Shown here: positions 58,008 to 60,171 of the stretch, one piece after another
Layout of the letters: each line of letters opens with the position of its first letter
Position numbering within the stretch: position 1 is the first letter of the stretch
Origin: Acetobacter pasteurianus subsp. pasteurianus LMG 1262 = NBRC 106471
Lineage (GTDB): Bacteria; Pseudomonadota; Alphaproteobacteria; Acetobacterales; Acetobacteraceae
DNA length: 64,000 nt
Assembly: GCF_000285275.1 (NCBI RefSeq)
Contig: NZ_CADO01000139.1
Span: 186,001-250,000, forward strand
Reading direction: 5' to 3'
Position numbers and translations under genes: made by a program
The notes under the pieces: generated by a model
Databases searched by the model: none
Told to the model about the DNA's origin: nothing
The model's input: only the letters and a program-made list of their open reading frames with translations

Positions 58008-58313
58008 ATGGCTGAAGATAAAATCAAAAATGTTGAAAGCAAGGTTGAAGGCGCAGCAACAGATGCCAAAGGCCATGTTAAAGATGCCGTGGGCGGTCTG
58101 ACAGGCAACATTGGCATGCAGGCCGAAGGCAAGTTCGATCAGTTTGCTGGCCACATGCAGCAGGATTTTGCAGACCTGTATGAAGAAGGTGAAGGCGTGC
58201 TGGAAAAAGCAGCTACCTTTGTGCGTGATAAACCCCTGCTTTCATTGGGTATTGTATCTGCTATCGGCCTTGTTCTGGGCTGGCTGATCTTCCCCCGCCG
58301 CAAGCGTTCTTGA
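58008..58313 (+). CDS. CsbD-like stress protein with a C-terminal membrane anchor
   Basis: 101 residues. The N-terminal half (DKIKNVESKVEGAATDAKGHVKDAVGGLTG) is like CsbD; residues 55-75 are acidic and helical; the C-terminus (DKPLLSLGIVSAIGLVLGWLIF then PRRKRS) is a glycine-rich TM helix with a basic end like that of ElaB/YqjD proteins. So it looks like a CsbD domain joined to a DUF883-type anchor. The ATG at 58008 has AAGGA 7 nt upstream; the open frame to 57981 adds nothing family-like. Function unknown, probably stress-related. Confidence 0.8.
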   Translation: MAEDKIKNVESKVEGAATDAKGHVKDAVGGLTGNIGMQAEGKFDQFAGHMQQDFADLYEEGEGVLEKAATFVRDKPLLSLGIVSAIGLVLGWLIFPRRKRS

Positions 58314-58321
58314 AAAATTAG

Positions 58322-58349
58322 TTTACCGGGACTCTTGCGCTCCTAGGTA
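58322..58349 (+). promoter_or_regulatory. Possible rnhB-ccrM promoter
   Basis: TTTACC (58322-58327) and TAGGTA (58344-58349) are 16 bp apart; the -10 is the same as in the rpsL leader promoter. A GANTC site (58330-58334) lies in the spacer. The match to a consensus promoter is weak. Confidence 0.35.
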
Positions 58350-58419
58350 AAAAAATGCTTCTCCTTCCCTGCGGAGTCGCAGTTGATGCGACTCGGTTAA
58401 TTTAGCCGAGTCGCATCAA
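58330..58419 (+). promoter_or_regulatory. GANTC cluster with two rival hairpins ahead of rnhB-ccrM
   Basis: Four GANTC sites lie within 83 bp: 58330, 58374, 58390 and 58408. The last three sit in repeats of GAGTCGCA / TGCGACTC. TTGATGCGACTCGG (58383-58396) pairs perfectly with CCGAGTCGCATCAA (58406-58419, 9-nt loop); alternatively GAGTCGCA (58374-58381) pairs with TGCGACTC (58387-58394, 5-nt loop). The two pairings exclude each other. The larger one ends 20 nt before the rnhB ATG, next to its ribosome site. CcrM, encoded downstream, methylates GANTC in its family, so autoregulation by methylation is likely. Confidence 0.7.
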
Positions 58420-58438
58420 ATGGATGGAAAGAGGGGCA

Positions 58439-59071
58439 ATGCCGGACTTTACGCGGGAGCAGCAGCTGGGTGGCCGAGTGGCCGGGGTGGATGAAGTGGG
58501 CCGTGGCCCGCTGGCAGGCCCCGTGGTTGCTGCCGCAGTGGTGTTTGGCGCTGGTGTACCTGCTGATCTTGCCGCCGTTATTGATGATTCCAAAAAATTA
58601 AAACCAGCTGTGCGCGAAGCCATAGCAGAACGCCTGCCTCAGGTGCCGGGTATTGAAATCGGCATTGGGGCGGCGTCCACTGCGGAAATCGATAAGCTGA
58701 ACATCCACCATGCAGCCCATCTGGCCATGCAGAGGGCGGTCGGCCGCCTGCCGCGCCTGCCAGACCACGTGCTGGTGGATGGTAACAAGCTGCCGGATTT
58801 TGGTTGCGATGCACAGGCCATTGTGGGTGGAGACAGGGTGAGCCTGTCTATTGCCGCGGCATCTATTGTGGCCAAGGTGGTGCGTGATCGCGCCATGGCC
58901 CGGCTGGATGCGCGCTGGCCTGATTACGGCTGGGAGAAAAACGCGGGCTACGGCACGGCTGTTCATCGCAAGGCGCTGATCAGCGTGGGCATTACACCGC
59001 ACCACAGAAAGACGTTCGGCACAGTGCGCCGGCAGCTAGAAGAACATTATTCGGCGGAGAAGCAGGTATGA
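58439..59071 (+). CDS. rnhB: Ribonuclease HII
   Basis: 210 residues. It nicks RNA in RNA-DNA hybrids and starts removal of single misincorporated ribonucleotides. Catalytic acidic residues are visible at Asp18-Glu19 ([16 protein letters not shown]), Asp114 (VLVDGNKLP) and Asp150 ([12 protein letters not shown]). The frame opens at 58424, but ATG 58439 has AGAGGGG just upstream. It overlaps ccrM by 4 nt; the rnhB-ccrM pair is common in alphaproteobacteria. Confidence 0.95.
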
Positions 59072-60171
59072 GCGGCGCAAAATCAGCATCCATGGAACTC
59101 CCTCTTGATCAGATCCTCCGTGGTGAATGTGTGGAAACCATGCGGTCCCTGCCTTCTGGCTCTGTGGATTGCGTGTTTGCAGATCCGCCATACAACCTCC
59201 AGTTGCGTGGAGAGCTGCGTCGCCCGGATGATACGCTGGTGGATGGCGTGGATGATGATTGGGACAAATTCTCCGATCTGGAAGAATATGACCGCTTTAC
59301 CCGTGCATGGTTGGCAGAAGCCCGCCGCGTGCTGCACAAGGATGGCACAATCTGGGTGATTGGCTCCTACCACAACATCTACCGCATTGGCGCCATTTTG
59401 CAGGATCTGGGCTTCTGGATTCTGAATGACATTGTGTGGCGTAAATCCAACCCCATGCCCAATTTCCGCGGGCGGCGTTTTACCAACGCGCATGAAACCC
59501 TCATCTGGGCCGCCCGTGGGCAGGATAGCCGCTACCGCTTCAACTATCAGGCCATGAAGGCACTGAATGATGATGTGCAGATGCGCTCAGACTGGTATCT
59601 ACCCTTGTGCACAGGCAATGAACGCCTGCGGAATGAGCACGGCCTGAAGCTGCATCCCACCCAAAAGCCGGAAAGTCTGCTGCACCGTGTGCTGCTGGCC
59701 TCCACCACGGTAAACGATGTTATTCTGGACCCATTCTCCGGCACAGGCACCACGGCTGCCATGGCGCGCCGTTTGCGGCGGCACTTCATTGGTATTGAAC
59801 GCCACCCGGATTACGTAGAAGCTGCAATGGCGCGTGTGGCTGCTGAAACGCCGCTGGAAGCCGATGCTGTGCAGACCACGCAGGATAAGCGCGAAGCCCC
59901 GCGTATTCCTTTTGGTTCCTTGGTGGAGCAGGGTGTCATTGCTGCTGGTACAGTGGTGTGTGACAAGAAACGCCGTGTGCATGCCACAGTTTCACCCGAT
60001 GGCACGCTGGTAAATGGCACCAAGCGCGGCTCTATCCACAAACTGGGTGCGCAGCTTACAAACGCCCCATCCTGCAATGGCTGGACATTCTGGCATTTTG
60101 AACGGGCGGGGGAACTGTTGCAGCTTGATGTGCTGCGGCAGGAAACGCTCCAGAAAACAGCGCAGGCTTAA
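59068..60171 (+). CDS. ccrM: Cell-cycle DNA adenine methyltransferase (GANTC)
   Basis: 367 residues. The motif order is that of beta-class N6-adenine methyltransferases: DPPYNLQL with catalytic DPPY at 39-42, then the SAM-binding DPFSGTGTT at 221-229. The C-terminal part (about residues 275-360, [13 protein letters not shown] to WTFWHFE) is the RAMA-type domain seen in CcrM. In Caulobacter the enzyme is made late in the cell cycle and methylates GANTC, affecting replication-coupled gene expression. No partner endonuclease is present, so it is a solitary methyltransferase. Confidence 0.95.

Follow-up and report, generated by a model that had tools for sequence, protein, structure and literature searches.

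Layout of the rnhB-ccrM locus

The analyzed stretch of DNA (64,000 nucleotides, hereafter the window) belongs to an Acetobacter close to A. pomorum, a species represented among its relatives by strain LHT 2458 (G228). On the plus strand, to which all features below refer, rnhB, encoding RNase HII (58439-59071; PF01351), is followed by ccrM (59068-60171), a member of the GANTC methyltransferase family with N6_N4_Mtase and RAMA domains (PF01555, PF18755), whose start overlaps the rnhB stop. The Pfam matches bear out the names that an initial annotation, made from the sequence alone, had given to both genes. The rnhB start codon is the ATG at 58439, preceded by the Shine-Dalgarno (SD) sequence AGAGGGG at 58430-58436; an earlier ATG at 58424, chosen by the ORF lister, lacks this SD. 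A CsbD/DUF883-type gene (58008-58313; PF05532, PF19029), not named in the initial annotation, ends 125 bp before the rnhB start, and tblastn searches of relatives found it 5' of rnhB in Acetobacter as well as in those deeper lineages that have the leader motif. A full-length ccrM orthologue was found in 48 of 49 Acetobacter genomes, as was gcrA.

The region between the CsbD/DUF883-type gene and rnhB contains four GANTC sites, at 58330-58334 (site 1), 58374-58378 (site 2), 58390-58394 (site 3) and 58408-58412 (site 4), exactly where they had been annotated. Site 1 abuts a -35-like TTGC, and motif comparison and alignment identified sites 3 and 4 as GcrA-type CGAGTCG, in the case of site 3 on the minus strand. 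With 505 GANTC in 450 kb of the contig (1.12 per kb), this is the only stretch with four sites in 83 bp and the densest four-site cluster; at that rate about 0.09 sites are expected per 79 start positions, and the 0.3 expected by chance in the initial annotation was too high. Across the whole window (1-64000) there are 84 GANTC where dinucleotide shuffles predict 174, an under-representation of about twofold. A further GANTC at 58586-58590, within the codons for the DSKK motif of RNase HII, recurs at +147 of rnhB in almost every locus examined and is probably a by-product of this protein motif. A dispersed repeat was considered and rejected; a search of the genome against itself matched only this locus and, by chance, 17 nt in a response-regulator gene.

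Conservation of the GANTC sites and promoter-like elements

Of 49 Acetobacter genomes, 48 yielded the rnhB upstream region. Among the 48 species whose locus could be read, 44 retain all four sites, at -109, -65, -49 and -31 relative to rnhB, or nearly so. The initial annotation had proposed to check this conservation in close relatives, and the methylation-feedback half of its proposal passes that check. Many Acetobacter leaders have extra GANTC, reaching as many as nine in 200 bp. The exceptions to the four-site set are the reduced genomes G235 and G236 together with G117, which retains site 1 only plus one new GANTC, and G234; these four genomes, without all or most of the leader sites, still carry ccrM and gcrA. 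In G235 (L062) the leader GANTC are all lost, and five GANTC are instead found around the ccrM start (+846 to +950 from the rnhB start).

In an alignment of 43 species, all 16 GA/TC columns were invariant, as were 11 of the remaining 116 columns of the leader (Fisher 8e-14 for the contrast, the columns not being fully independent of relatedness). The middle letter varies at two of the four sites, being C or G at site 1, where GA.TC is invariant in 43/43 species, and G or A at site 2, where it is likewise invariant. A strict GA/TC combined with a free N is as predicted if CcrM recognition is what selection conserves.

Outside Acetobacter, at least three GANTC within 200 bp 5' of rnhB were found in 30 of 66 loci, often 10-11 bp apart and surrounded by unrelated sequence. 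Such clusters occur in 27 of the 36 loci without a TTGAC-type promoter in the rnhB-ccrM gap but in only 3 of the 21 with one (p = 1e-5 for these other genera, the locus counts being uncorrected for relatedness). This contrast, together with the sites at the ccrM start in G235, argues that the GANTC cluster follows the ccrM transcription unit. In several leaders from other Acetobacteraceae (L080-L082, L086, L096, L099 and L103), at least three GANTC with 10-11 bp spacing lie on one helical face 5' of rnhB, and in a distant relative (L115) the rnhB-ccrM gap holds several GANTC about 68-69 bp apart, apparently as a tandem array.

The GcrA-type motif YGAKTCG makes up 46-47% of leader GANTC versus 7% of the background, an enrichment of about sixfold. 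Sites 3 and 4, which probably lie in the leader, fit this motif, whereas site 1, at the -35-like element TTGCGC (58335-58340), does not. A TTGC-N16/17-TG block, with spacing conserved deep in the family, looks like a -35 element plus spacer, and comparison of the leaders gives two candidate placements for the -10 element (58351-58364), AAAAAT at 58351-58356 or TTCTCC at 58359-58364; a consensus scan of the window leader called no sigma70 consensus promoter. The promoter-like block overlaps a CU tract (58357-58369), and with either placement the RNA would start inside or just after this tract. No CtrA box (TTAA-N6/7-TTAA) was found in the leaders examined, save in one reduced genome. Elsewhere in the genome from which the window comes (C141, L003:1200-1985), a response regulator resembling CtrA, with a match to the CtrA receiver 4qpj (E = 1e-22), has H (AILHLQQPD), not D, at the phosphoacceptor position. 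Two other candidate elements were rejected: a consensus match to an intrinsic terminator has no real T-run, and an upstream ORF, which the aligned Acetobacter leaders begin with ATG or GTG near 58355-58357, encodes a peptide that is not conserved and has lost its start codon in L089 and L111, as judged by eye.

Predicted structure of the leader RNA

Two rival hairpins with a common middle arm had been proposed as an RNA switch in the initial annotation. Both stems are present, an 8-bp stem (P2, 58374-58381 / 58387-58394) and a perfect 14-bp hairpin (P3, 58383-58396 / 58406-58419), and they share the arm with site 3 (58390). P3 ends 19 nt before the ATG at 58439, close to the 20 nt first given. 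The minimum-energy fold of the leader uses the 14-bp and not the 8-bp stem, and P3 is predicted to be enclosed by a pairing absent from the initial annotation (P1), in which the CU tract at 58357-58369 serves as an anti-SD (5' strand) for the SD region GGAAAGAGGGGC at 58426-58437 (3' strand), so that the SD is hidden (z = -5.4); in the predicted fold, 58357-58368 is the part of the tract that pairs. A further hairpin (P0) lies over site 1, with arms at 58322-58331 and 58341-58351 and the loop CTCTTGCG. When a GANTC pairs with another that has a complementary N, a 5-bp stem arises automatically.

Applied column by column to the alignment of 43 species, RNAalifold does not detect P1, since indels shift its register between clades. 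We have therefore used duplex swap tests, in which the pairing energy of a species' own strands is compared with that of strands exchanged between species. For P1 within the genus, the energy was -14.4 for native versus -11.6 for swapped strands, and none of 5000 permutations reached the native value; the same was true of 20000 permutations with 25 representatives across deep lineages and fixed anchors. For P3, 0/5000 permutations reached native for the outer flanks and 6/5000 for the inner flanks, and for P0 the figure was 0/2000. In contrast, the inner and outer flanks of P2 gave no signal (1310/5000 and 1950/5000).

Because related species inflate such tests, they were repeated on phylogenetically independent pairs drawn from a tree of coding DNA. 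Native pairing was better in 16 versus 4 of the 20 informative pairs for P1 (p = 0.006), and in 6 versus 1 for both P3 and P0 (p = 0.06 each), while P2 (3 v 3 and 2 v 4) exhibited no coevolution beyond the GANTC cores. Of the covarying stems for which the initial annotation had called, P3 thus has coevolving flanks and P2 does not, leaving the competition between the two hairpins unsupported; the RNA structure that is supported is the anti-SD:SD pairing of P1 around P3. In P0 the arms change together and the loop is conserved, although one clade of Acetobacter has lost this hairpin.

The coevolution of P1 is exemplified by L041 and L042, between which a C-to-U change in the CU tract is paired with a G-to-A change at the SD, L053 representing the G-U intermediate. 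P1 is also retained in the very AT-rich L092 and in deep relatives without GANTC at this position, so that the anti-SD probably predates the GANTC cluster. In the window leader, the SD has a predicted openness of 0.22, which rises to 0.84 once the CU tract is removed. The leader matches no Rfam family of known structured RNAs or riboswitches.

Proposed control of rnhB-ccrM at the DNA and RNA levels

In our preferred interpretation, to which we assign a probability of roughly 0.6, this region serves the rnhB-ccrM operon as promoter and leader, acting at both the DNA and the RNA level. What the comparisons show is the site conservation, the coevolution of P1 and P3, and the link between the cluster and the ccrM transcription unit. 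From this conservation and linkage, the GA/TC invariance and the share of YGAKTCG, we infer, with good support, that rnhB-ccrM is under GANTC-methylation feedback or replication-coupled control. CcrM sites in the promoter (site 1) and in the early leader (sites 2-4) would make transcription methylation-dependent, with GcrA as the most likely mediator, which would bind methylated YGAKTCG and recruit sigma70. Replication would leave the sites hemimethylated until CcrM restored full methylation, and the operon may thus sense both its own product and the passage of the replication fork. Points against this interpretation are the ambiguous -10 element, the lack of a sigma70 consensus match, and the four congeners that are without all or most of the sites yet carry both ccrM and gcrA.

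At the RNA level, P1 can only be selectable in RNA begun upstream of about 58357, for example by read-through from the csbD-like gene. In such transcripts the CU tract would pair with the SD, with P3 inside, and hide the rnhB start. P1 would most probably serve to silence this read-through RNA, while RNA from the local promoter, lacking part or all of the CU tract, would be translated. The layout suggests an arrangement like that of T4 gene e, with silent read-through RNA and translated locally started RNA. Since some species (L044, L074 and L077) pair the anti-SD only weakly, and removal of the CU tract brings no predicted opening of the SD in several deep relatives (L088, L089 and L114), the read-through idea may not hold everywhere. 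With dense conserved sites for its own product and an SD-hiding fold 5' of the operon, CcrM output is probably set both by the enzyme's own DNA marks and by which mRNA is made.

Could the DNA level suffice? A GcrA/CcrM promoter in which the hairpins are side effects of palindromic GANTC, and the CU tract is kept as promoter or initially transcribed sequence, would agree with invariant columns that are GANTC letters, with the lack of independent support for P2, and with the TTGC-N17-TG block being kept where P0 is lost (L061, L064 and L068-L070). It does not predict the coevolution of the CU tract and the SD, which is observed in near and distant pairs and with G-U intermediates (L042, L047 and L053), and the P3 arms coevolve outside the GANTC cores; we consider this explanation unlikely. 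The switch between 8-bp and 14-bp hairpins originally proposed has in its favor that both stems occur in the window with a common arm. Against it stand the P2 flanks that fail to coevolve, the minimum-energy fold, and one clade in which site 2 is GAATC, breaking the central pair of the 8-bp stem while GANTC is kept, and taken together these render the switch highly improbable.

The coevolving arms of P0, P1 and P3, the conserved P0 loop and the lack of an Rfam match would also suit a leader RNA that acts as a sensor, either a thermosensor or an autogenous binding site for RnhB or CcrM, opening P1 on a signal in transcripts started upstream of P0. Beyond the GANTC and promoter letters, however, the leader has no conserved core resembling a ligand pocket, and P1 varies between species from a very stable -23 kcal/mol to a weak -5, a spread that one would not expect of a tuned thermosensor, which makes such a sensor quite unlikely. 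Finally, the paired strands of P3 include GACUC/GAGUC, which reproduces the CcrM DNA site in RNA. From this one might imagine that the leader RNA is bound as well, by CcrM or a partner, and that CcrM represses its own mRNA besides marking the promoter, with P1 as a translational gate, a reading that we regard as far-fetched.

That promoters can be controlled by GANTC is already known. Control of Caulobacter ccrM by its own GANTC methylation has been listed as 'most probable' (PMC3973325), and the position of GANTC relative to -35 and -10 sorts Caulobacter promoters by cell-cycle timing, sites between the two elements giving one common timing (PMC4287350). GcrA binding depends on GANTC methylation (PMC3667746), and Caulobacter GcrA prefers YGAKTCK (PMC7987155). 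A survey from 2010 counted GANTC 5' of alphaproteobacterial cell-cycle genes and drew no conclusion on control (PMC2877005). Acetobacter shares with C. crescentus ccrM and the GANTC-controlled promoters of ctrA (P1), ftsZ and mipZ the presence of GANTC in the promoter region, gcrA and ccrM, and the GcrA-type extended motif. It differs in having four strictly spaced GANTC in 83 bp, of which the leader holds three, an operon with rnhB first, an SD-hiding RNA leader, and, apart from the one reduced genome, no CtrA box. The extended motif enriched in the Acetobacter leaders is that of the GcrA regulon (YGAKTCK) of Caulobacterales, and GcrA binding is predicted here; a ccrM leader as a multi-site target was not described in the literature searched.

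In T4 gene e, the 5' strand of an inhibitory structure is overlapped by a late promoter (PMC3014915). In common with the T4 gene e, soc, 49 and I-TevI leaders, longer upstream transcripts of the Acetobacter operon would have a sequestered SD, here from predicted pairing and coevolution, but the operon is a bacterial cell-cycle operon, its promoter would be methylation-linked, and its start site is placed by comparison. Literature searches found no data on an Acetobacter ccrM leader or transcript start, and the main text of a start-site paper on G. oxydans mentions neither rnhB nor ccrM. To our knowledge, a dense and invariant GANTC cluster spanning a leader 5' of rnhB, combined with a coevolving SD-hiding leader, has not been described in the literature searched.

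The locus bears on the setting of CcrM levels beyond Caulobacter and the rhizobia. As the invariant letters of the leader are mostly CcrM's own sites, methylation feedback is directly testable in easily grown vinegar bacteria, and the SD-hiding leader coupled to it would illustrate how a cell-cycle operon can insulate an internal promoter from read-through.
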